From NCBI GenBank assembly GCA_002723275.1, contig PBNZ01000021.1:209308-273307 (forward strand): a stretch of 64,000 bases of DNA, read 5' to 3'. The translations under genes were made by a program, and so were the position numbers. This document shows positions 11,131 to 60,742 of this stretch, piece by piece. The notes beneath the pieces are model-generated. The model did not search any database and had not been told where the DNA came from. It saw only the letters and a program-made list of their open reading frames with translations. The first letter of the stretch is position 1. Each line of letters starts with the position of its first letter. The stretch comes from Planctomycetaceae bacterium. GTDB lineage: Bacteria; Planctomycetota; Planctomycetia; Pirellulales; Pirellulaceae.

Positions 11131-12870
11131 TTGTTCGGGCGAAACGCTTGTGTCATTCTGACGTTAATCGCATGCCTTGGCTCCTCGCGACAGGTTGATG
11201 CCAAGGATTATCAATCCAACCAACGACTGCGGCGACCGGTTTGTCTGGACTGGATCGGTTCCACGCAGGCCGCCATTGGCAATCGAACTGGTTCGATTTC
11301 CATCTTGGATCTGTCGAGTCGCGAGATCGTCGATGAGGTTGACCTTGGACAGTCCATTACAGATCTCGCAGTGATCGACGCCACAACGATGGTGGTTATT
11401 TCAAACGAGTCTCACTCATTATTGGTGCTCTCAAGAGACACAGCTGGTTGGTCTGTCATTGCGCGTCACCCGCTATCGCAGGAGCCAGTCGATCTTCAAT
11501 TGAATTCGGATCGCACGATCGCGACTGTCAGCTCTCTCTGGTCACATCGGCTGACAACGTTGAATCTCGCGACGCCCAACCGCCCTGAAACACTGGTCGT
11601 AACCGACCTGCCATTTGCCCCAAAGCTGCACGCGTGGATCAACGATCGCGAGGCCTTGGTCGCCGCGGCCTTTGGCGGCGAACTGGCAATCGTCGATTTC
11701 ATGAATGGTCGGATCGTTCGCCAGCGAGAATTACTCGCCACTCACAACATATCCGGGATCAACATCGAAGGGCAGGAGGTGAAATTGACACACCTCATGC
11801 TGAATCACGAGCAGGCAACGACCGGTTCGAACGTCCACTGGGGCGACATTATGTCAAACGTGGTACGCACCATGGATCTCGATTGGTTCCTGTCATCGAA
11901 GCCGGAAGAAACGACTGCAGCAGACATTTATTACCTTGGTCACCCCGACGACGCAACCGGTGACCCCGAGGGGATCCTCACCACGAAAGACAGGCGGCAG
12001 ATCATCGCCTTTGCGGGCATTGATGAAATTGGCATCAGCGACCCAGGCGCGAATTATTACCGACGAGTCCCTGTCGGTCGGCGTCCATCAGCTTTCGCTC
12101 TCAATCACGACGAAAGCCTGCTGTTAGTCACTAACCGTTTTGATGATTCTATCTCATTCATTGACACGCAACGACGTAAACCGATCACCACCGTCTCCTT
12201 AGGTCCTACCCGGGAGCTTACGCTCGAAGAAGAGGGAGAACTGCTTTTCTATGACTCAAATCTGTCAAGTGATGGCTGGTTTAGTTGCCATAGCTGCCAC
12301 ACCGATGGTCATTCGAACGGGCAACTGAGCGATACCTTTGGAGATGGATATCGTGGTTCTCCCAAGCGAGTTTTGACCTTATTGGGTGCTCATCAAAGCG
12401 GCCCCTATGCGTGGAATGGTCAAGTCACAACGCTGGCGGAGCAAGTTGAGAAATCGATCAAAACGACGATGCGAGGGCCACAACCAACACCCCAGCAGGT
12501 GGCGGCAATCACCGCCTTTGTCGAGACACTCGTTCCACCGCCGGGTGTCAGTCTTGCTCGATCCGAAGTCGATTTAACCAAGCAAAAACAAGGGCGAGCG
12601 ATTTTTGAATCGGCTGGATGCGTCGAATGCCATCGAGAAAATCAGAAGTACACGACGGCTGAAAATTATGACGTAGGCCTGGTCGACGTCGAGGGGAATC
12701 GAGAATTCAACCCTCCATCACTGCGAGGTGTCAGTCAAAAACCGCGTTTACTGCACGACCGTTCGGCCCACGACTACCGCGAGGCGTTACAAATTCACCC
12801 GAATGGTAAGCCGCTTGAACTGAGTGCTGATGAATGGGACGCATTGACTCACTTCCTTAATTCACTCTAA
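11131..12870 (+). CDS. Beta-propeller protein with C-terminal di-heme cytochrome c
   Basis: This 579-residue protein has a TTG start preceded by a GATGAGG-like ribosome site and a signal peptide ending at VDA. Residues 40-360 are YVTN/WD-like propeller blades (ISILDLSSREIVDEV, TVSSLWSHRLTTLNL, PSAFALNHDESLLLV). Two cytochrome motifs follow: CHSCH near residue 387 and CVECH near 499, in an arrangement like that of methylamine utilisation MauG/cytochrome c peroxidase proteins (GAYNWNG-like PYAWNGQVTTLAEQV, LRGVSQKPRLLHD). It is periplasmic and probably transfers electrons, with the propeller binding a partner or substrate. The CRTAC1 lipoprotein follows 110 bp downstream on the same strand. Confidence 0.8.
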   Translation: MFGRNACVILTLIACLGSSRQVDAKDYQSNQRLRRPVCLDWIGSTQAAIGNRTGSISILDLSSREIVDEVDLGQSITDLAVIDATTMVVISNESHSLLVLSRDTAGWSVIARHPLSQEPVDLQLNSDRTIATVSSLWSHRLTTLNLATPNRPETLVVTDLPFAPKLHAWINDREALVAAAFGGELAIVDFMNGRIVRQRELLATHNISGINIEGQEVKLTHLMLNHEQATTGSNVHWGDIMSNVVRTMDLDWFLSSKPEETTAADIYYLGHPDDATGDPEGILTTKDRRQIIAFAGIDEIGISDPGANYYRRVPVGRRPSAFALNHDESLLLVTNRFDDSISFIDTQRRKPITTVSLGPTRELTLEEEGELLFYDSNLSSDGWFSCHSCHTDGHSNGQLSDTFGDGYRGSPKRVLTLLGAHQSGPYAWNGQVTTLAEQVEKSIKTTMRGPQPTPQQVAAITAFVETLVPPPGVSLARSEVDLTKQKQGRAIFESAGCVECHRENQKYTTAENYDVGLVDVEGNREFNPPSLRGVSQKPRLLHDRSAHDYREALQIHPNGKPLELSADEWDALTHFLNSL

Positions 12871-12980
12871 GAATACTGAACTTTTCATTGGTGAAGAGGT
12901 GAACCCTGACATCCCTCGTGATACTCTAAAGAACTATTATCGGGCAATCAAAACCAACGCACGATTATCCTTTGGATACC

Positions 12981-15368
12981 ATGTCTTCGTTTTCTTTTCA
13001 GCCAATCACGCGAGTCCTCGTTTTCGGTTCACTCCTGATCCTTGGGGCTTGCCGCGCGGAATCTCCCACGCCAAACACAAGCGATTCGAACGCATCTCAA
13101 GAGGCATCCAATCCGGGAGAGGCTGATGAGGTTCAGGCGTTCCAACAACAACGTCCGACATCGGCTGAGGACAAACATGTACTCGTGGCTCAACGCCAGG
13201 AACTTGACGAGACCGTTTGGCGACAAGAAGTGGTGGCTCAGCAATACGAACAAGCATTGGTCCAATTATGGGATGCCTTGTTGGACGAAGCCCGCGTTCC
13301 GGATGGAGACGAGCTATCGGTCTTGGCAAATCAGGTCCGCTTCAATGAGATGCAGATCGGGAGTGCAGGCCCGACGGAACAGTGGGACCATGGGATCACC
13401 GTTACCCCGCTCAACAAGACCCCGCGCAATTTGAGCGAAAGCGAATGGAAGGGATTGGTCGGCCTCGCGAAAACTCAGGGCTATCGCATCGTTCAAACTG
13501 AATGGCATCATGCCGAATTCGATAGGCATGACTCGGGGCAGGCACGATCTAAAATCTCGATGGCGATTTATGCACGCCACACTTCGGGCAACGAGCGGGT
13601 TGTGATCCGAGGCAATTTGGAAGTGACCTGGCGTCCCCGTCCCGATCCCAAGTCGATTCCCATACCGGATCGCATCGACACGACGGATTTAGAGATTTTG
13701 CGGCAGCAGGGTTCTGTTGCTTTCGAAAAAGTGTTGACGATTGACCATGCCAGTCCTTCCAACCGTGCCGGTATTCAACCGATCATCACTTATGATTTGA
13801 ACGATGACGGTTTGTCAGAGATTCTGCTCGTCGGCAGCAATGAACTTCTTTGGAACGAAGGCGATGGGAATTTTTCAAAACGAACACTATGTACGCATCG
13901 GGAACGAGGATTTGAAACTGCACTCGCCGCGGATTTGACCGGGGATGGCAACGTCGACCTCATGTTGCCCGGTCGACGTGGTGATTTATTGCTTTACCAA
14001 GGCGACCAGGGGCATTTCTCGACCCCTCCCTTGGGAAAGGCCCGCGAGGGAGGTCCTCTGATTCAACCTCAGGTGATTACCGCAGGCGATATCGACAAAG
14101 ATGGGGATCTTGATCTTTGGATAGGCCAATACAAGATCGCGTATATCGGTGGTCAGATGCCGACTCCATATTACGACGCCAACGATGGCTTTCCGGCCTA
14201 TCTTCTCTTCAATGATGGAAAGGGCCGCTTCAGTCCCGCCACGGAAGAGACGGGGCTGGCTGAAAAACGATTTCGCCGCAGCTACGGCGGTTCGTTCGTG
14301 GATCTTGATACCGATGGCGATTTAGACCTGCTAGTCGTCAGCGACTTTGCCGGAGTCGACCTCTATCAAAACGACGGGAGCGGCTATTTTCGGGATGTCA
14401 CGGAAGAGACCTTTGACGATCGCCATCTTTTTGGCATGTCGGTATCGTTTGCTGACTTCGATCTCGATGGTCGCACGGATCTATTCGTCACAGGAATGGC
14501 CTCAACAACGGCAAGGCGGCTCGAGCACATGCGACTTGGACGCGTGGATCGACCCGACATTCACTTGATGCGATCTCGGATGGGTTACGGGAATCGAATG
14601 TATCTGTCACAGTCGAATCGCTTTGTTCAACCCGAATTTCGGGATCAGGTCGCGAGAACGGGCTGGTCCTGGGGATCAACAGCTTTTGACTTTGACAACG
14701 ACAGCGATGTCGACATTTATGTGGCGAATGGTCACAGCAGTGGCAAATCCACCAAAGACCATTGCACTCATTTCTGGTGTCACGACATCTACGAAGGAGA
14801 CTCGAAACCGAACCCCGCTAACCAGGCACTCTTCCAGGATGTCTTGGCTGGCTATTTTGATCGCAGTGAATCCTGGGACGGATACCAGAAAAACTCCCTA
14901 CTCATGAACCAAGACGGCTCAGGATTTGAAAGCATCGCCTTTTTGCTCGGAGTCGGCCAGGAGTTTGACGGACGAGCTGTGATCAGCGACGACATCGATG
15001 GAGATGGGCGGATGGATCTACTCGTGATTGAAGACCAGTGGAATGATGGGCAACGGCTCCACATCTTCCGAAATCAATTGGATACGGGAAACCACTGGGT
15101 GGGTATTCGCTTGCAGGACGAACCGGGTCATAGCGTGCTCGGATGTCGCGTCACTGTCGATGCAGCGGGCAAAAAGCGGACTCGCGAAATCCTAGCCGGC
15201 GATTCGATTCATGCTCAACACGCACCCACCGCTCACTTTGGTCTTGGAGCAACAGACAAGATTAACGCGATCGAAGTAAGCTGGATCGACGGACACGTGG
15301 AACGGATTAAATTACCTGCTTGCGATCAATACCACGTCATCACTCGCTCCAGCGTGGCGAAGCCCTGA
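12981..15368 (+). CDS. CRTAC1-family FG-GAP/ASPIC-UnbV lipoprotein (cysteine form)
   Basis: This 795-residue lipoprotein starts at ATG 12981, with lipobox LGAC at Cys24. The N-terminal 250 residues are helical and unassigned. From about 270 onward there are FG-GAP/VCBS repeats with calcium-type loops (DLNDDGLSEIL, DIDKDGDLDLW, DLDTDGDLDLL, DFDLDGRTDLF, DFDNDSDVDIY). An ASPIC/UnbV domain closes the protein (HWVGIRLQDEPGHSVLGCRVTV, HAQHAPTAHFGLG, VSWIDGHVERI). Between the repeats and ASPIC lies the segment DHCTHFWCHDIY. Cys595 in it aligns with the in-frame TGA of the second CRTAC1 gene at 53729-56773. It is probably exported and anchored on the outer face. Its function is unknown. Confidence 0.85.
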   Translation: MSSFSFQPITRVLVFGSLLILGACRAESPTPNTSDSNASQEASNPGEADEVQAFQQQRPTSAEDKHVLVAQRQELDETVWRQEVVAQQYEQALVQLWDALLDEARVPDGDELSVLANQVRFNEMQIGSAGPTEQWDHGITVTPLNKTPRNLSESEWKGLVGLAKTQGYRIVQTEWHHAEFDRHDSGQARSKISMAIYARHTSGNERVVIRGNLEVTWRPRPDPKSIPIPDRIDTTDLEILRQQGSVAFEKVLTIDHASPSNRAGIQPIITYDLNDDGLSEILLVGSNELLWNEGDGNFSKRTLCTHRERGFETALAADLTGDGNVDLMLPGRRGDLLLYQGDQGHFSTPPLGKAREGGPLIQPQVITAGDIDKDGDLDLWIGQYKIAYIGGQMPTPYYDANDGFPAYLLFNDGKGRFSPATEETGLAEKRFRRSYGGSFVDLDTDGDLDLLVVSDFAGVDLYQNDGSGYFRDVTEETFDDRHLFGMSVSFADFDLDGRTDLFVTGMASTTARRLEHMRLGRVDRPDIHLMRSRMGYGNRMYLSQSNRFVQPEFRDQVARTGWSWGSTAFDFDNDSDVDIYVANGHSSGKSTKDHCTHFWCHDIYEGDSKPNPANQALFQDVLAGYFDRSESWDGYQKNSLLMNQDGSGFESIAFLLGVGQEFDGRAVISDDIDGDGRMDLLVIEDQWNDGQRLHIFRNQLDTGNHWVGIRLQDEPGHSVLGCRVTVDAAGKKRTREILAGDSIHAQHAPTAHFGLGATDKINAIEVSWIDGHVERIKLPACDQYHVITRSSVAKP

Positions 15369-50279: not shown

Positions 50280-51587
50280 TTAAACCTGTTCTTCACACCG
50301 TCGGTCAAAGACTCTTCGAGCTTTCCCTTCACTGCGTGCCAACGTCATCGACTCAGCCAGAGTAATGGTGGCCTTGATGCCCATTACCTGGTGAAGACGC
50401 TTCGCCAGCTGATCACAGACTTGATCCGTGTTGCCCAAATCGTCACGGTCGATCTCAACTCGCACTTGGATTTGGTCGAGACTTCTGTCACGAGTCAGGT
50501 GAATCTCATAGTGAGGACTGACGCATTCGGAGGACAGCAACACATCTTCGATCTGTGCCGGATAAATATTGACACCTCGGACAATAAGCATGTCATCACA
50601 ACGATGAGTCACTCGTCGAATGCGAGTCGTGGTTCTACCACAAGGACATGGATCGGAAATCAAGGCAGTTATGTCACCTGTCCGATAGCGGATCGCGGGA
50701 ACAGCTTCTCTCGAGAGGGTCGTCAACACAAGCTCTCCCTCCTCCCCAACAGGAAGAGGATCACCGCTGTCTGGATCAACGATTTCGGGGAAGAAGTGAT
50801 CTTCGAAAACATGAAGACCGTCTTGTTCCTCGCAGGCGCTCGCCACTCCAGGTCCAATGATCTCTGACAATCCGTAAATGTCATAAGCACGAATACCAGC
50901 CGCGTCTTCGATGCGTTGCCGCATCGGTTCGGACCAGGGCTCTGCTCCGAAGATTCCCGTTTGCAGAGGCAGTTCACGGAGGTTAATCCCAAGATCGTCA
51001 GCCCGTTCAAGCAAATGCAAAAAGTAGCTAGGCGTACAACAGATCGTCGTTACATTCAGATCACGCAAAAGTTGGATTTGCCGATCTGATTGACCTCCGG
51101 AAACCGGAATGACGGTCGCGCCGAGGGATTCGGCACCGTAGTGTACACCGAGCCCTCCGGTGAACAGGCCATAACCAAAGGCGACTTGGACGACATCGGA
51201 CGGAGTTACTCCACAAAGTCTCAACGTCCGCTCCATGACGCTGGTCCACAGATCAATATCATTCTGGGTATAACCGACAACCGTCGGCATTCCCGTGGTA
51301 CCACTTGACGAGTGCAATCTCACAACCTGCTGAAGTGGCGTGGCAAAGAGACCGTAAGGAGACTGTTCTCGATAATCCGACTTGAAGAGAAACGGCAATC
51401 GAGGAAGGTCCTCAATTCCGGAAACCGATTCTGGAGCGACACCACAAGCTTGAAATCGTTCACGATAAAGCGGCACATTTTGAACCGCGTGCTGCACCGT
51501 TGCGCGCAATCGCTCATCTTGCCGCTTCCGCAATTTATCGGCGGACAGGCAATCGGCTGATTCAACGTTAGTGGACCATTCAATCAT
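50280..51587 (-). CDS. Phenylacetate-CoA ligase-like adenylating enzyme (PaaK family)
   Basis: This 435-residue protein has PaaK-family features: FLFKSDYREQSPYGLFA, the ATP loop HSSSGTTGMPTVVGYT, GLFTGGLGVHYGAESLGATVIP, TICCTPSYFLHLLE, and the GYTQND-type and C-terminal RGVNIYPAQIEDVLL segments. It activates a carboxylic acid to its CoA thioester via an adenylate. The ATG overlaps the stop of the E1 gene by 4 bp. The substrate may be an aromatic or branched-chain acid; it cannot be told from sequence. Confidence 0.88.
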   Translation of the reverse strand: MIEWSTNVESADCLSADKLRKRQDERLRATVQHAVQNVPLYRERFQACGVAPESVSGIEDLPRLPFLFKSDYREQSPYGLFATPLQQVVRLHSSSGTTGMPTVVGYTQNDIDLWTSVMERTLRLCGVTPSDVVQVAFGYGLFTGGLGVHYGAESLGATVIPVSGGQSDRQIQLLRDLNVTTICCTPSYFLHLLERADDLGINLRELPLQTGIFGAEPWSEPMRQRIEDAAGIRAYDIYGLSEIIGPGVASACEEQDGLHVFEDHFFPEIVDPDSGDPLPVGEEGELVLTTLSREAVPAIRYRTGDITALISDPCPCGRTTTRIRRVTHRCDDMLIVRGVNIYPAQIEDVLLSSECVSPHYEIHLTRDRSLDQIQVRVEIDRDDLGNTDQVCDQLAKRLHQVMGIKATITLAESMTLARSEGKARRVFDRRCEEQV

Positions 51588-53683
51588 TCGACAGGATCAG
51601 TCTTCAATAGCTTGATGATTCGATCACCAATTTTTTTCGCATCAGGCACTAGCGACAGAGCAAGATTGGCGTTGTACGGAATTGGGCAATCGGTCGTGGC
51701 GAGACGTTGAGGCGCCATCTTCAGGCAGGAGAAGCAATTGGCGGCAACAGTGGCAACGATCTCAGCTCCAAAACCACAGGTCAGGGTATCTTCGTGAACC
51801 ACAAGCAGCCGTCCCGTTTCTCGAACGCTTGTCATCACTGCCTCGCGATCCCAGGGCATGATCGTCCGAAGATCAATGACGGTCACCTGACCTTCCAGAT
51901 CTCGACAAGCTTCGACACAGGCGTGCACGGAGGCTCCCCAGGTGACCAGTGTCAACTCGCTGCCACGCTGACGTATCGCGGCTTTTCCAAACGGCACAGC
52001 GTGATCTTCGCTCGGCATAGGCGAACGAGCCTCAGTTGCTCGGATCAGCTTTAGGTGTTCAAGGAAGACACACGGATGCTTTCCACGCAGAGCTGTTCGC
52101 AACAACCCAACGGCATCCTCGGCCGTCGACGGAAAAGCGACGACGAGACCGGGAGAATGAGCAAAAATCGCCTCATCACAAGCGCTATGCCATGGATCGC
52201 CACCCTTTTCTCTCATGCCGACGGGCATGCGAATGACGACGGGAGCCTGGAATTTTCCGTTGGTCCGCCAGTGGATCGTCCCGGTATCAATGATTCTTTC
52301 CAGACCCGCATCGGCGTACCGGCGGAATTGAATTTCAGTGACAGGTCGTAAGCCGGCGAATGCCATTCCGACCGCACGACCCACAATGCCTTCTTCGGAA
52401 AGAGAAGTGTCGAACACACGTTCATCACCGAATTCTTGCTGCAAACCGCGAGTGAAGCCATGCAGTCCACCAAGAACACCGACGTCCTGACCAAACAAAA
52501 CCACTCGATCGTTTTGTTCAAGTTCTGAATAGAACGTACGTTGGACGGCTTCTCGAAAGTCGACTCTCTCTGCAGGATCATTTCTTTCGGCAGCCGAATT
52601 AAGCTGACCATCATCGTTATTAGAAACTTGAACACCGGCGGTCGAATCGGCTTCTAGTAAAGTCGTTGGAAGTGTTTCAACGGTTGGTTCTTCAGCGGCA
52701 TCAGCTTCCTTCAACGCCTCACTCACATCGCACGCTACCTCATCGCACATATCTTCGAAGAGTTGAGCCGGTAGCTGTTCATGTGCCAACCAGGTTCGGA
52801 ACTGGAAAATAGGATCACGGACCTCTTCTGATCGCAACTGCTCTCCGGTTTTGTAGCGTTGATCATCCGCGTAAGAGTGACCGTTCAGGCGAGGTACGGT
52901 TACCCTCAAGAGACAAGGTCCTTGTCCACTGCGAACGTGTCGCACAGCGTCTTGCACGTCACACGACGCAACCCATGGACAAGCGCCATCGGTTTCCAGA
53001 ATCCTCAACCCTCGAAAGGACTCCAGGTTGCGTGCGATGTTACCTCCGGGTGTTTGCATCTCAGAGGGAACAGAAATCGCAAAGCCGTTATCCTCAATGA
53101 CAAACAAAACCGGCAAATTCAACGTGGTCGCAATGTTCAACGCCGCCCAGAATCCATTACTCGCGGTGCTCCCCTCACCTCCCATAGCAACGGCAATGGC
53201 TCCATCCCACTCGGAACGCCCCAGGGAATGGGCGTAATATCGGATCGCCTGAGCCCACCCGACTGCCGGAGTAAATTGGGCGCCAACATTTCCTGAAGTC
53301 GGCAATACAGTGGCGCCAGATCGTTTTTGCATATTGAAGATGACACCAACATCTCGCCCCTCACTGGGACTTCCAACCTTTGCCAAACTGGCTTTTAGAG
53401 CCTCTGCTGGCGACAGCCCACTGGCGAGTAGAAACGGACGAGAGCGATAGTAGATGGACGCAGCGTCATGGGAATGATCGAGTGAAAGAGCGACCAGGAT
53501 TTGAGCCAGCTCATGTCCTTGCGCGGACAATTGCAACCGCACTCGGTCAGTCATTTCATTCTCTTCCAGCCGGTCCAGAGAGCGTGACAACAGAATCAAT
53601 CGCGCAACCTCGATCCAATTAAATTGGCTGGCGAGATCATCACTTCGTTGGATGAATGGGTTGGATGACACTTGCTGATTCAA
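51584..53683 (-). CDS. Fused alpha/beta 2-oxoacid dehydrogenase E1 (TPP-dependent)
   Basis: This 699-residue protein has a TTG start. The alpha half (about 20-320) has the TPP site GGEGSTASNGFWAALN and NLPVLFVIEDNGFAIS. The beta half (about 376-699) has VDFREAVQRTFYSEL, VFDTSLSEEGIVGRAVGMA and RMPVGMREKGGDPWHSACDEAI. A Glu/Asp/Ala-rich linker joins them. E1 of branched-chain or pyruvate type normally occurs as two subunits with E2 and E3 partners; none is in the window. In this setting it could supply an acyl group to the ligases and carrier protein (inference). Overlaps the next gene by 4 bp. Confidence 0.88.
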   Translation of the reverse strand: MNQQVSSNPFIQRSDDLASQFNWIEVARLILLSRSLDRLEENEMTDRVRLQLSAQGHELAQILVALSLDHSHDAASIYYRSRPFLLASGLSPAEALKASLAKVGSPSEGRDVGVIFNMQKRSGATVLPTSGNVGAQFTPAVGWAQAIRYYAHSLGRSEWDGAIAVAMGGEGSTASNGFWAALNIATTLNLPVLFVIEDNGFAISVPSEMQTPGGNIARNLESFRGLRILETDGACPWVASCDVQDAVRHVRSGQGPCLLRVTVPRLNGHSYADDQRYKTGEQLRSEEVRDPIFQFRTWLAHEQLPAQLFEDMCDEVACDVSEALKEADAAEEPTVETLPTTLLEADSTAGVQVSNNDDGQLNSAAERNDPAERVDFREAVQRTFYSELEQNDRVVLFGQDVGVLGGLHGFTRGLQQEFGDERVFDTSLSEEGIVGRAVGMAFAGLRPVTEIQFRRYADAGLERIIDTGTIHWRTNGKFQAPVVIRMPVGMREKGGDPWHSACDEAIFAHSPGLVVAFPSTAEDAVGLLRTALRGKHPCVFLEHLKLIRATEARSPMPSEDHAVPFGKAAIRQRGSELTLVTWGASVHACVEACRDLEGQVTVIDLRTIMPWDREAVMTSVRETGRLLVVHEDTLTCGFGAEIVATVAANCFSCLKMAPQRLATTDCPIPYNANLALSLVPDAKKIGDRIIKLLKTDPVE

Positions 53684-53728: not shown

Positions 53729-56700
53729 TTACTTTTTGTTGTCCGGAACGTTCATAAGTCCATCGAAAATCAATGGAAGCATTTCTTCTGTCATTTCTAG
53801 CGGTGGCAGCAATTCAAATTTCCGCCAAGCCAAATGATCGGGTTCAGGCGAATCCAGCTTACTTCGGATGGTAGAAATCGACGGCAGCCCCAGATTCACG
53901 TGGAGAATTCGTCCCGTCTCATCGACGAGTACTGCTGCGGGAAGTACCTGTTCATCAAATGCATGAAGAACCACGTCCGAGATCCAAGTCCGCTGTTCGA
54001 CCGACGCGTTGACGAGTAATTCATAAGGCGGCTTCACTTGATCCTGATAGGACGACAGCTTGTCCGATGTGTCCTCCAGATCTATGGGCACACCCACGAT
54101 CTTTAAATCTTGCGCTAAGAAACTATCCCGTAATCGTCCGACTTCCGGCAACTTGGCCAGGCATGCCTCGCACCATGTCGCTGTCGTCACATAGAGCGTC
54201 AGTCTTGCATCGCCGTAGGGCAGGGGACACTCGGAGGTTGAATTAGCCGACAACGATTCAGGGATTTCGATCGGTGTCGCTGGCCGATAATCTTCGGTCA
54301 CTAAACCTGTGGAATTTGGCGCATCCTGCGGGTTTTCATAAACGGTCAGCAGCTCACCGGCATTGAGACCCGTGAACATCTGCGTTTTGCCCGATGGCCA
54401 GCGAATCTCCATCGTGTCGATCGAAGCCTGCGATCCAAGTCCGATCAATATCGTCTCGCTGTTCTGCGCGGCCATCCCTTCACCAAGTTGTTTCTGCCGA
54501 TAACGAAGTGTTCCGTCGGGGAGGCTCAGGAGCATCGTCGCGCCAACTCCGTCTCGATTCGTCCAATCCTTTGACGGTTGAGCTTCCTTAGCTCCACCCA
54601 CCACTCTGACTGCAATAAAGTTGCAAGCCTGTGCAGCATCTATCTGATTGCGATAGAGTCGAAATGTAGGGTATCCATGGTTGGTCGCAAACAGATCCGT
54701 CGCCCCATCCCGATCGAAATCCAACATGGCGAAACAACGGCTATCTTGTTCATCATCGAGACCAGAAACACCAGAGACCGTTACAAATTTCGTGGCTGCT
54801 TCACTGAGAAAGGTTTGATTTCGTTCGTGTCCGGACCATGGGATTTTCGCGCGTTGGACGGTCTGCAGCGGCGATCCTTTACGGATCGGGACAAGAGATT
54901 TCGATCTTTTGTTACGCACGACCGTGCGCCACCATTCACTTCACAAGTCTTCCGGGTATTCGAACTTAGCCGGTGGCGTGTAATAGCCGCTCAACGAATG
55001 AATATCAAGAAACCCATCGTTATTGATGTCCGCGAACTGGCCACACCATGACCAACCTGCTTTTTCGACACAGAGAGCAGGCGGCTTCGCCCCTGACACT
55101 TTTTCAAACAAAGCATCATTGTTTCGAAAGAGCGAGTTCCCTCTGGCCGCGTTTGACCACGCCGCTTGGAGTTGAGGCAATTTCGCGGTTATTCGCTGTC
55201 CAGCTTTACTGAACATATTCGTTACGTAGAGATCCAAGTCGGCATCATTATCGAAGTCTCCCCAACTCACTCCCATCCCAAAGCCGACATCGGCAGTTTG
55301 CGTACGTTCTGTAACGTCAACAAAACTCTCACCTTCATTTCGCAACATATTATTGGGAGCAAAGTCGTTCGACAGATAAAGATCTGGGTCGCCGTCTTTA
55401 TCGTAATCCGCCCAACCACCGTGAAACGTCGATCGATTGATAGCCGTCGTGGCATCGTTCTCATGGAGATTCTCAAACTTTCCACCGCCAACGTTTGTCA
55501 AAAGAACATTGACACTCGTTCTTCGATCAAGCAACTCCGGTAAACCCGTCGATCCTCGCAATGCCGGATCATCCGTCAATTTCCATTGATACGTCGCGCA
55601 ATAGATATCGAGCAAACCGTCCATGTTGTAGTCGGCTACGGAGATGGACGTGACGTGATCGACCGGTAGAATCTGCCGCTCAACCCATTCACCATCGACG
55701 TTCTCAAACAAGATCGACGAATGATTGACACAGCCTACCACCACATCAGCGTCGCCATCATTATCAACATCACAGAAGCAGGTAACGTTGATTTGGAAGA
55801 ACTCGGGAAGGCTTTCTGATTTCAGTTTTTTGGAAACGACGTCAAACTGTCCATTTTGTTGGTTCAACAGAATCGTGATCGTTCCATCTCGAAAGGTGAA
55901 GGCAACGTCATCCCAACCGTCCTCATCAAAGTCCAGAACGGATACGAAGCCATTCCGCAGCCCAACCGTCGAAAAGGAGTTGCATCTCCGACCTTCTTCA
56001 ATCAAGTCTTGAATACCTCGCTTGACTAAAGAATCTGCGATTTGCGACTTCGTCATTGGATCCGAGATGACGACCGGCAAAACATCTCGAAACATTTTTC
56101 GAGGTGCCATCAACATCTCAAGCGAATTCGTACTCCAGGAATGGATACGCCATTGAGACTCACTCGCATCGTCTTCCTGTCTCCAGGTCACATCGATCTT
56201 TCCTTCGATCGCCGCGACCTCACCAGTCTTTAACCTTGCGACGCCAGTAAACCCGACAACGCTCACCCATTCGTTCACTTTCTCGGAATTAAAGTCACCG
56301 CGCACAAAGTAGAACTTATTGTGCTCAAAGAAATCGACTTTCTCAAAAAGTTCCTGCCAGATCTGTAGGGATGCCCGTTCTACATTCGACGTGGCAGAAG
56401 CAGTCTGATACTGGAACCGGGTAAGGTTGACTGCCGGTATCGAAAGCGATTCCGACGAGCGATTTGAGGCAACCTTCGTCAGCTCGACAAGAGGCGCAAA
56501 CGCATCGCTTCCCAGGCCCGGCAAGTTTAGATTTGCAGCTTCCCGACTCAGTGTTTTCAAGTACGGGTTTAAACTGAGAAGCAGTTCTTCAGATCGTTCA
56601 ACTTGAGCATATTCTGGGGATGAGACAATCTTGTCGACCAAGCCGTGTCGAGCGACTCGTTGAGTACGCTGAGATGGAACATCTTCTACCGGCTGCTGAG

Positions 56701-56773
56701 CATTCTGACATCCAATGATTGCGATGCAGAGAATTAACAAGATTTGTCTTGGATGACGGAACGAGTTGGACAT
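53729..56773 (-). CDS. CRTAC1-family lipoprotein with thioredoxin domain, probable selenoprotein (TGA = Sec)
   Basis: One open frame of 1014 codons, interrupted only by TGA at 54943-54941 (residue 611). Parts in order: lipobox IIGC (Cys22, start ATG 56773), FG-GAP/VCBS repeats with calcium loops (DFDEDGWDD, DVDNDGDADV, DYDKDGDPDLYLSND, DFDNDADLDLYVTN), the segment YPEDL-U-SEWWRTVV, one more loop (DFDRDGATDLF), an ASPIC/UnbV domain (about 739-813), and a thioredoxin-like domain with WCEAC (Cys868 and Cys871). In the homologue at 12981-15368 the U position is Cys595 (KDHCTHFW). A GGUC-loop hairpin follows the TGA by 17 nt. A separate second gene from GTG 54919 would lack ribosome site and export signal. 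Alternative: a single nonsense mutation. Confidence 0.75.
54911..54932 (-). promoter_or_regulatory. Bacterial SECIS-like hairpin downstream of an in-frame UGA
   Basis: In the mRNA, 17 nt after UGA (54943-54941), the stem GCGCAC pairs with GUGCGU around a four-base apical loop GGUC (54923-54920). Beyond one G-A mismatch two more pairs extend the stem. The E. coli fdhF SECIS also has a GGUC apical region with essential G and U, about 18 nt after its UGA. In bacteria SelB binds this loop to decode UGA as selenocysteine. Its sequence and spacing match; function is inferred. Confidence 0.75.
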
Positions 56774-56788
56774 ATTTGAAGGATTCAA

Positions 56789-57042: not shown

Positions 57043-59226
57043 TCATTCGGATCGTTCTAGATCTGACGCATCTGAGGGTTCTACCACCTCAAGATATTGA
57101 TCGACCGGGATATCGACCAGTAACTGTCGAATTCCAGAGGCAGGCCAATCGATCGTGATTTGTTCAATTTTCCTGGCCACGCCCAATCCAATTTCCTGCC
57201 GTAGTGGCACGTATCCAAAGCTACTCATGCCACCCACCGTTCTATGGATTTCCCGCAAGCCAGAATCGGTTTTGACTTCAATTTTTATGCGAGCACCAAC
57301 AGCAGAACGAGTTGACTGTGTCCCCTTGAGCTTGAGGACGATGAACCGATTTCCATGCCCCGGATTCTGGAATAATGCATTTGCAAATTGATCCGCGACA
57401 AAAGCGCCACCCATCTGGGCAAATACATCCTGATCACCATCGTTATCGAGATCAGCAAAACAGATCCCGTGACCTTTTTGCAAGTGACCAAAACCGCCAT
57501 TCGCTGTCACATCTTCAAAGAGGTTTCCGCCGTTATTTCGAAACATCCGATTGGGAACAATTGCAGCAAAGTCGGGTGCTCCCGTACCAAGGTAGATATC
57601 AAGAAATCCATCGTTATCGAGATCCCCGAAACTCGCCCCCATCACTGAGTAAGGCTGATCCAGTCCAAGTTTGGCACTTACATCCTGAAACTCGCGTCCC
57701 TGTAAATTTCGCAAGACTTTGGTATTTCCAGAGGGTCTCCAACTACCATCCCAGGATCCAATGAAGAGATCTTGCCAGCCATCATTATCGTAATCGAAGA
57801 ACCAAGTCGCAAAATTCTTTGCCGCAGGAAAATCCACTTTGTATTTTTCCGTGACGTCGACGAAGACCGCATCACCCACATTTTCGAACAACTGATTGGG
57901 CTGATCATCCTCCCATGCCATATTGGCAATGAAGAGATCGAGATCTCCATCGTTGTCATAATCAGCTGCGGCAGCACCTTTGGTATTTCCTTGGCTGGCG
58001 ACACCCGCATCAACAGCTCGATCGACGAAGTGTCCCCGACCATCGTTCATGAAGAGTTGATTGGGATAAGATTCATGGTTTTCAATCTTCCGTCTCACGC
58101 CGTAGCTCAATTTCGTTGATTCATTTCCGACGAACAGGTCCAAGTGTCCGTCGTTATTGAAGTCGCCCCACACAGCGACCTGTGTGGGGTAAGCGGGTTC
58201 AGCTAAACCTGCTTCAAAGGTAACGTCTTCAAATTTACCGGTGCCGTCATTCCGCATTAATGAATTTCGGATTCTTCCTTGAGCTCCCAACCACGCTCCG
58301 CGTAGGATCAGAATGTCGACATCGCCATCGCTGTCATAATCAGCTGCGGTGCAATTCAAGCTGCTACCGACCTGCGAACTCAACCCAGCCTGTTCCGTCT
58401 TTTCTTGGAACGTTCCATCACGTTTATTTGTAAATAAGCGCACGGGCTCGCGGGGGTCCAAGGACGATGTCACGACATCCAACCAACCGTCGCCGTCGAA
58501 GTCATCGATCACAACGCCGCCTGAAAGATTGATGGTGGCGAGACCCGCTTCCGGCGCGACATCCGTATATTCAACAAATGGCAGCGAGCTCTTGAGCATC
58601 TGTTCACCGGATTCATCACCAAGAAGCTGACGTGTAACGAGCATAAGCCACTCTTTTTTCTGCTCATCCACCGAACTAAGTTCACGACTTTTCAGAAAGT
58701 CATTCAACGCGGCCCGAGTGGGCTCAGCAACGCCGTGCTGGCCTCCGGAGCGGACTGGAAAAATGCAGCTATGGGCGCAATGGTTGCTGATACAATTGTC
58801 CACTTCCGCCTGGCGCAGATGGACAACACCTCGCAAATAGTGCAACTCAGCCTTACTTTTGTCCGGTATTGCTTGATGGATATCAAACATCTGATCGACA
58901 AGGCGCATTGCCTCATCGTTATTGCCTTCGGCAAGATAAGCATTGACTAGAATCTTCTGACTATTCCACAGTTCCCGTTCTGCCAGCTTTTTGTCATTCA
59001 GTCTTTTTTCTAAACGTATGCGACGGGCATTCCCAAGAAAGGTTGACGACTTCAACAGGCGGTCAGATGCTTCTTGCAATCCCTCACTCGTTGGCTGTTC
59101 AGCCACATTTTGTTGGCGGTTATTGCAGCCGCCCCCACAAGTCAGAAGTGTGAGAAGCACGAGAAGAGCAAAACGCTGCGCACGGTGGACCTTCACCTGT
59201 ACATCGCTTTTCGCCAGATCAATCAT
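57043..59226 (-). CDS. CRTAC1-family FG-GAP/ASPIC-UnbV lipoprotein with N-terminal TPR-like region
   Basis: This 727-residue lipoprotein has a lipobox around Cys30-Cys34 (LLTLLTCGGGC). Residues 45-170 are helical and TPR-like, with NCISNHCAHSCIFPV resembling the conserved Cys-rich motif of this family. FG-GAP loops follow (DFDGDGWLDVV, DYDSDGDVDIL, DFNNDGHLDLF, DYDNDGDLDLFIAN, DYDNDGWQDLF, DLDNDGFLDIYLG, DLDNDGDQDVFAQM). An ASPIC/UnbV domain with VGARIKIEVKTDSGL and IDWPASGIRQLL closes the protein. It is exported and anchored. It lies between the MBOAT gene and the selenoprotein gene. Its role in the array is unknown. Confidence 0.87.
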   Translation of the reverse strand: MIDLAKSDVQVKVHRAQRFALLVLLTLLTCGGGCNNRQQNVAEQPTSEGLQEASDRLLKSSTFLGNARRIRLEKRLNDKKLAERELWNSQKILVNAYLAEGNNDEAMRLVDQMFDIHQAIPDKSKAELHYLRGVVHLRQAEVDNCISNHCAHSCIFPVRSGGQHGVAEPTRAALNDFLKSRELSSVDEQKKEWLMLVTRQLLGDESGEQMLKSSLPFVEYTDVAPEAGLATINLSGGVVIDDFDGDGWLDVVTSSLDPREPVRLFTNKRDGTFQEKTEQAGLSSQVGSSLNCTAADYDSDGDVDILILRGAWLGAQGRIRNSLMRNDGTGKFEDVTFEAGLAEPAYPTQVAVWGDFNNDGHLDLFVGNESTKLSYGVRRKIENHESYPNQLFMNDGRGHFVDRAVDAGVASQGNTKGAAAADYDNDGDLDLFIANMAWEDDQPNQLFENVGDAVFVDVTEKYKVDFPAAKNFATWFFDYDNDGWQDLFIGSWDGSWRPSGNTKVLRNLQGREFQDVSAKLGLDQPYSVMGASFGDLDNDGFLDIYLGTGAPDFAAIVPNRMFRNNGGNLFEDVTANGGFGHLQKGHGICFADLDNDGDQDVFAQMGGAFVADQFANALFQNPGHGNRFIVLKLKGTQSTRSAVGARIKIEVKTDSGLREIHRTVGGMSSFGYVPLRQEIGLGVARKIEQITIDWPASGIRQLLVDIPVDQYLEVVEPSDASDLERSE

Positions 59227-59347: not shown

Positions 59348-60742
59348 CTAGAATTTAAAATAAATGTAAGGCTGTGTTTGATCGACAGCACCATAAATAA
59401 TCAGGAGTATCAAGAAGCTCCAGAAGGCAGCACGCCAAAAAGGATTTAGCGAAATGGGTTCATGCTTTCTACGAAGCCCTCGAACGACGAATACCGTGCC
59501 GACAAAGGCAAGCAGCGCCAGGTGAAAATTATAGAAGTAAGGCCAAGGCCCCCACTGACTGAACAATCCCATATAGACATTTCTGGCGGTTTCGAGATCC
59601 GGAGACCGAAAGAGCACCAGCGTGATATTCAGGAAAACAAAACACATGAGAATGGCGATAGGTTTGGTCCACCACTGATGGCCAAACAGTGGCCTGCCAC
59701 GAAATCCCCACCCACGCACAAAGTTGTAAAACGCCATGGACACCCCCCAAACCAGCCCAAACAGAACGTAGTTCCAGGCGGCACCGTGCCAAAGGCCGAT
59801 TAGCGTCATCACCCCGATCAATTGGAACAGCTTTACAAGAGGTCGACCGCCCAGCGGTAAATACACGTAGTCACGGAACCATCGTGACAACGTCATATGC
59901 CAACGATTCCAAAATTCGCTGGGATTCTTGGAAAAGAATGGCCAATCGAAATTTTCCGAAAGTCGGACACCCAACATTCGAGCAATGCCAATCGCGATAT
60001 CCGTGTACGCCGAGAAATCCAAATAGATTTGAAAGGCAAAGCAAAGCGTGCCGACGATTAATTGCGATCCACTGGCATCCGCAGACCGTAGATATACCTC
60101 GTCAGCAACAATCGCGAGACGGTCCGCGAACACCACCTTCTTGACGACCCCCCAAAGGATTCTTTGAAATCCAGACTCCAGATCACTCAACGTAACTGGT
60201 TGCTTGACGGCTAATTGGGGAATTAGTTGCGAAGGCCTTTCAATCGGTCCGGCCATGAGTTGAGGAAAGAACGCAACATACTGCGCAAATGTTGCCAGGT
60301 CTCGAGTTGCATCCCAGCGACCTCGATAAACTTCAATGGTGTAGCACATCGTCTGAAAAGTGTAGAACGAAATACCGGCAGGCAGGACCCAATCCGGCAA
60401 ATCAATTAATTGATCGTTGAATGACCGAAAGATGACGTTGAGGTTGTCAGCAACAAAATGCGAATATTTAACCACGCAGAGCATGGACATATTGGTGACC
60501 ACGCTGACCACCAAAAATAGCTTTCGTCGCGATGAAGTCGCTGCATCCGAAATCTGAATGGCGGCCCAATAATCGACGACCGTCGACGCCCCCAATAAAA
60601 GGCAATACCACGGGTGAGCTGCTCCGTAGAAAAAGTAAGATCCGCCAATGAGCAGCCAACGGCCCAGCGACCACGGCAACGCGCGAATCAAGAGGAACAT
60701 GCACGCAAAGAAAGGAATAAATGAAAGGTCAACGAAGCTCAT
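59348..60742 (-). CDS. MBOAT-family membrane-bound O-acyltransferase (AlgI/DltB type)
   Basis: This 464-residue protein has about ten helices and the MBOAT core: FYTFQTMCYTIEVYRG, ENFDWPFFSKNPSEFWNRWHMTLSRWF in two overlapping parts, YLPLGGR and the catalytic His region GLWHGAAWNYVLFGLVWG. Such proteins pass an acyl group across the membrane to an exported polysaccharide or similar acceptor, usually with an SGNH partner. The 14-bp overlap with the SGNH-like gene (60729-60742) supports that partnership. Confidence 0.92.
   Translation of the reverse strand: MSFVDLSFIPFFACMFLLIRALPWSLGRWLLIGGSYFFYGAAHPWYCLLLGASTVVDYWAAIQISDAATSSRRKLFLVVSVVTNMSMLCVVKYSHFVADNLNVIFRSFNDQLIDLPDWVLPAGISFYTFQTMCYTIEVYRGRWDATRDLATFAQYVAFFPQLMAGPIERPSQLIPQLAVKQPVTLSDLESGFQRILWGVVKKVVFADRLAIVADEVYLRSADASGSQLIVGTLCFAFQIYLDFSAYTDIAIGIARMLGVRLSENFDWPFFSKNPSEFWNRWHMTLSRWFRDYVYLPLGGRPLVKLFQLIGVMTLIGLWHGAAWNYVLFGLVWGVSMAFYNFVRGWGFRGRPLFGHQWWTKPIAILMCFVFLNITLVLFRSPDLETARNVYMGLFSQWGPWPYFYNFHLALLAFVGTVFVVRGLRRKHEPISLNPFWRAAFWSFLILLIIYGAVDQTQPYIYFKF

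Follow-up and report, generated by a model that had tools for sequence, protein, structure and literature searches.

A probable selenoprotein family with selenocysteine in a CRTAC1-type propeller

CRTAC1 and the ASPIC/UnbV proteins (PF13517 and PF07593; murine CRTAC1, 9etn) pair an FG-GAP propeller with an UnbV domain. CRTAC1 relatives are not known to act as enzymes, nor is any bacterial biochemistry known to us for CRTAC1/UnbV proteins. The TlpA/ResA thiol-disulfide oxidoreductases (1jfu, 1st9) have a thioredoxin fold with a WCxxC motif. Catalogued prokaryotic selenoproteins are made with SelA, SelB, and tRNA-Sec, carry a bSECIS hairpin close to the UGA, have Cys homologs, and include U-x-C motifs (PMC13188914). 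Among Planctomycetes associated with Porphyra, the selenoproteins named in the main text of the published description are fdhA and fmdB (PMC4807772).

We analyzed a stretch of 64,000 nucleotides from a Planctomycetaceae bacterium (contig PBNZ01000021.1), referred to here as the window. It holds a gene, P0001, whose family we call Sec-CRTAC1. Relative to CRTAC1, with which it shares the propeller and UnbV domain, the family adds selenocysteine (Sec) in the loop where a helix begins (DLUSFFWRQVV), as well as a TlpA-like domain at the C-terminus. The thioredoxin fold and WCxxC motif are shared with TlpA and ResA, but in Sec-CRTAC1 this domain is fused behind the propeller. Sec lies outside the thioredoxin motif, which sets the family apart from UGC-TlpA and the UxxC redoxins in the selenoprotein catalogue. 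The decoding genes, proximal hairpin, Cys homolog, and (in subfamily B) U-x-C motif are all shared with catalogued selenoproteins, whereas the main motif holds Sec only among the matches listed, rather than a mix of Sec and Cys, and the family is heavily paralogous. Decoding of Sec in planctomycetes is common to this family and the selenoproteins in the main text of the Porphyra work.

The preliminary description of this locus knew of no described selenoprotein of this family, and none came to light in the sources searched here. A catalogue published in 2026, covering 119 families of prokaryotic selenoproteins, has no CRTAC1, FG-GAP, ASPIC, or propeller entry (PMC13188914). NCBIfam has no matching model for Sec-CRTAC1, and deep-Sep makes no mention of CRTAC1, FG-GAP, or ASPIC families. 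Searching the main text of open-licence papers for selenocysteine paired with CRTAC1, FG-GAP, ASPIC, or VCBS returned nothing relevant. We consider it likely that Sec-CRTAC1 is a previously uncatalogued family. The apparent reason it was overlooked is that routine annotation ends each gene at its TGA, so databases may contain many of its genes in split or truncated form.

A single reading frame with an in-frame TGA

Two leftward open reading frames, 54941-56788(-) and 53729-54919(-), were confirmed by the reading-frame list to form one frame whose sole interruption is a TGA at 54943-54941. The complete gene spans 53729-56773(-), ends at a stop codon at 53731-53729, and encodes 1,014 amino acids including Sec at residue 611 (U611), in the motif DL-U-SEWWRTVV. 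Homology to relatives runs on through both sides of the TGA in sequence searches and BLAST. The first start codon 3' of the TGA is a GTG at 54919, within the hairpin discussed below and with no evident Shine-Dalgarno sequence. As had been noted beforehand, the segment after the TGA has neither an export signal nor a ribosome site. The full-length product begins with a probable lipoprotein signal peptide (MSNSFRHPRQILLILCIAIIGC; 56708-56773(-)), in which a lipobox-like IIGC at residues 19-22, read by eye, would place lipid attachment at Cys22. P0001 is a probable lipoprotein.

The proposed architecture of the joined protein, CRTAC1 followed by a thioredoxin-like WCEAC domain, was recovered in profile searches. 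Pfam detected five FG-GAP_3 stretches and an UnbV/ASPIC domain at residues 742-809 (54347-54550(-); E 2.6e-13). Together, Pfam, an AlphaFold2 model, and structural matching delimit an FG-GAP beta-propeller of the integrin-alpha/CRTAC1 type at residues 226-710 (54644-56098(-)). The model, built with 60 family members (pTM 0.77, mean pLDDT 75), matched murine CRTAC1 (9etn) over 450 residues with a Z of 41.1 and an rmsd of 2.4. It positions Sec at the N-terminus of helix 610-619, in a propeller loop. The TlpA/ResA-like thioredoxin domain occupies residues 858-974 (53852-54202(-)), with C868-E-A-C871 at 54161-54172. In P0001 itself the AhpC-TSA/Trx match fell below the Pfam cut-off (20 versus 26 bits), while its orthologs were above it; the family profile matched TlpA (1jfu; E 3.7e-18), and the C-terminal domain of the model matched ResA (1st9) in structure comparison. 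At least one family member has TPRs after the TlpA-like domain.

The gene is flanked by a fused 2-oxo-acid dehydrogenase E1 gene (51584-53683(-)), and genes for an AMP-binding ligase (50280-51587(-)) and an MBOAT acyltransferase (59348-60742(-)) lie nearby. A neighboring CRTAC1 protein (57043-59226(-)) has neither the Sec/Cys motif nor a thioredoxin domain. Across about 15 Sec-CRTAC1 loci there was no constant neighbor gene; the surroundings varied, with PQQ-propeller and peptidase genes, occasional planctomycete cytochrome genes (PSD/PSCyt), and others.

Conservation of the TGA and its hairpin

Among the matches from a search of 60 relatives, more than 80 contained one and only one internal TGA, and BLAST placed the TGA at the U611 column in all loci examined. 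At least about 200 homologous genes carry the same-column TGA, including 15 in the host genome, all of subfamily A. Weaker pattern matches in that genome were rejected as family members on inspection. Because TGA occupies the same column in every recovered motif-carrying homolog, its presence in P0001 is far beyond chance. The preliminary description had named a sequencing error as one way to refute the reading; with the same TGA kept at about 200 loci in several phyla, such an error can in practice be excluded.

When the third base of the codon was left open in a scan of contigs from about 85,000 species, 110 of the 111 matches listed read TGA. The remaining match, a TGC in Pseudomonas, was judged to be chance; aside from it, no Cys or Trp codon occurred in that motif among the matches listed. 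By phylum, the matches listed comprised about 63 from Verrucomicrobiota, 26 from Planctomycetota, 17 from Acidobacteriota, and one from a metagenome-assembled genome (MAG) labelled Proteobacteria (L187; SXRM01000014.1), which carries a second FG-GAP/UnbV gene alongside its Sec-CRTAC1 gene. As judged from these alignments, P0001 is a member of a large, paralogous family spanning at least three phyla. The selenoprotein reading of the preliminary description stood, while its single-gene scale gave way to a multi-phylum family. Paralogs often lay close together, in groups of two or three that fit into about 13 kb, as in L053, L059, and L061 of the host genome (G000:C24:140560-153240) and in clusters around L064 (G001:C50:61000-74000) and L098 (G057:C21).

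A SECIS-type hairpin had also been predicted after the TGA. The candidate lies at 54911-54932(-), with a 6-bp upper stem (54914-54929), a GGUC loop (54920-54923), and two outer pairs. Published bSECIS criteria specify a loop of 3-9 nt, a stem of 4-16 bp, a G in the first two loop positions, a distance of 16-37 nt from the UGA, and a minimum free energy of at most -7.5 (PMC13188914). The P0001 hairpin, CGCAC-GGUC-GUGCG, falls within all of these constraints at 17 nt after the UGA and -10.2 kcal/mol. Its register is shifted by one nucleotide relative to the main family (a GGUC rather than a GGUCG loop), and its energy z-score was modest (-1.9). Energy z-scores are weak because the region is GC-rich, and therefore we used covariation and codon freezing as evidence for the hairpin. 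An Rfam scan of the window for known SECIS or tRNA-Sec families found ordinary tRNA only.

Covariation was pronounced in subfamily A, where the stem reads GCGACA-GGUCG-UGUCGC. Standard pairs filled 95.5% of the pair cells in a set of 177 distinct sequences versus 93% in shuffles, with 0 of 5,000 shuffles reaching the observed value. Double-change cells numbered 40, compared with a shuffle mean of 0.8 and a maximum of 5; these shuffle statistics ignore relatedness among sequences and are supportive rather than exact. The mixture of phyla argues against simple inheritance as the source of this covariation. When the partner was offset by one to three columns, pairing came to 67% at most. Loci with Ala (GCG) in place of Ser (TCG) at the ninth codon usually have CGC as the Arg codon (p 2e-8), and those with Pro (CCG) there usually have CGG. 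At three loci AGG..CCT stands in place of CGG..CCG, a swap that is synonymous on both sides. Constraint on the protein would not readily explain such hairpin-matching codon swaps. The freeze on synonymous choice was confined to codons -1 to +9 (Leu TTG in 149/177, Val GTG in 156/162, Ser TCG in 134/138), and outside this span the same amino acids use codons freely. Subfamily B has a hairpin of its own type, GGCUGU/ACAGCC, for which 19 sequences gave no covariation signal beyond shuffles.

These patterns bear on whether the UGA is simply a stop, leaving two genes or a truncated propeller and a remnant. A standard gene caller would split the locus in this way, and the GTG at 54919 is at hand as a start for the second part. 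Such a stop would have to recur in the same column of about 200 genes in three phyla, ahead of a part without a signal or ribosome site, despite conserved UnbV and CxxC sequences beyond it and a covarying hairpin with frozen codons around it. We regard a genuine stop as extremely improbable.

Selenocysteine machinery in the host and other genomes

All four genes of the decoding pathway listed for checking are present in the host genome (6.8 Mb, 96.6% complete). Its tRNA-Sec reached 71.3 bits, well above the gathering score of 47, and was called SeC(tca) by ARAGORN, and profile searches found selA (578 bits) and selB (386 bits) on the same contig (C29). A selD gene (L282; G000:C44:1006-1932) scored 356 bits and has its own in-frame TGA. 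This TGA is at the apparent catalytic position, with GU-AGK replacing the catalytic Cys, and the host SelD is probably itself a selenoprotein.

The gene and the machinery also co-occur across genomes. The true motif was found in about 16 of the 398 genomes of the class, 15 of which passed the selA cut-off, as compared to 193 of the 382 others (p 4e-4). Among 37 genomes checked for tRNA-Sec, 26/30 carriers and 2/7 non-carriers scored at least 60 bits (p 0.005). The four carriers seemingly lacking tRNA-Sec all have selA, and one without selA has tRNA-Sec, such that tRNA-Sec and/or selA is present in 30/30 tested genomes carrying the gene.

Conservation as such strongly implies read-through, which could in principle insert Trp, Cys, or Gly via a reassigned code or suppression. 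However, homologous matches typically contain one TGA, always in the same column, and neither TGG nor TGY ever takes its place in the 110 matches listed. The Sec-specific tRNA, SelA, SelB, and SelD are present, and a SECIS-type hairpin lies 3' of the UGA. We therefore give insertion of another amino acid hardly any weight. The family-wide TGA, the machinery, and the hairpin together support the original suggestion of a selenoprotein, and we conclude that the UGA at 54943-54941 is very probably decoded as selenocysteine, giving a full-length secreted protein.

Subfamilies and the possible role of selenocysteine

Two Sec subfamilies were distinguished. Subfamily A, with the motif DLUSFFWRQVVSQSP, includes P0001 (DLUSEWWRTVV). 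In an alignment of 60 subfamily A proteins, U611 never varied, and neither did the CxxC of the TlpA-like domain in the 58 that cover it. Of 141 complete subfamily A proteins, 137 have this CxxC at 244-302 residues beyond Sec. One homolog (L106) reads DC-U-SFFW, with adjacent Cys and Sec. Subfamily B (PDGUTCLWRAVVSQP) comprises 19 proteins whose chains stop some 210 residues past Sec; none of the 19 has a TlpA-type motif. A Cys at +2 (U-x-C) is found in 19/19; the recognition pattern required this Cys, and a BLAST list made without the pattern agrees. Hence, each subfamily has a candidate resolving thiol, because A carries the CxxC domain and B the +2 Cys.

A Cys-containing CRTAC1 relative is encoded elsewhere in the window (12972-15368(+)). 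BLAST aligned it with P0001 over 670 columns at 24% identity and placed the Cys of its DHC-THFWC motif (codon at about 14763-14765) opposite U611, as the preliminary description had suggested. Pfam found no thioredoxin domain in this protein. Inspection of the TGA column in homologs showed TGA or, in one sister group, this DHC-type Cys form (5/60 relatives). The gene directly upstream of the Cys-type one encodes a CCP_MauG/cytochrome c protein (11131-12870(+)) whose N-terminal part is propeller-like. Planctomycetota neighborhoods of hydrazine-synthase-homolog beta-gamma/CRTAC1 have been described (PMC12758564), which the arrangement at 11131-15368(+) resembles, with no alpha-like gene seen just upstream of the pair.

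We propose that SelB and tRNA-Sec would decode the UGA as directed by the hairpin 17 nt downstream. The resulting selenol, at the helix start in the propeller loop, may act as the catalytic nucleophile of an oxidoreductase reaction in the envelope. Oxidized selenium would then be reduced by the CxxC of the protein's own TlpA-like domain in subfamily A, while in the short subfamily B proteins the Cys two residues past Sec might take over this reduction. Sec and the thioredoxin domain are co-conserved, and we see about an even chance that Sec performs redox chemistry with the thioredoxin domain in cis.

The main rival to this redox mechanism accepts the Sec protein but makes Sec a ligand for a metal such as copper or mercury, or a structural residue, with the TlpA-like domain maintaining it in reduced form so that metal can be loaded. 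FG-GAP propellers serve as scaffolds for binding. Among solved structures, TlpA is the nearest relative of the C-terminal domain, and its known role is to reduce copper-site proteins. No conserved cluster of His, Met, or Cys is apparent immediately around Sec in the subfamily A alignment, and characterized selenoproteins are mostly redox proteins (PMC13188914). We consider a metal-binding or structural role unlikely, although less so than a selenium-dependent switch in which, without selenium, termination at the UGA would release a functional propeller lacking the thioredoxin domain. Supply could limit read-through because 15 paralogs make the total demand for Sec high. Yet the truncated form would not be expected to fold, because the cut falls inside the predicted propeller (226-710), making a switch improbable.

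Sec-CRTAC1 places selenocysteine in an integrin-like propeller, a fold absent from the current catalogue, and implies that several environmental phyla need more Sec than was known. CRTAC1/UnbV proteins gain a testable redox center, and DL-U-S-x-x-W-R with its embedded hairpin offers a simple search key for re-annotation. With evenly divided confidence, we suggest that, of the selenoprotein families in Planctomycetota, Verrucomicrobiota, and Acidobacteriota, Sec-CRTAC1 may be one of those with more copies. It may represent a new class of envelope selenoenzyme in which a near-obligate propeller Sec works with a thioredoxin domain of the same polypeptide, and could largely explain why these lineages retain the Sec machinery.
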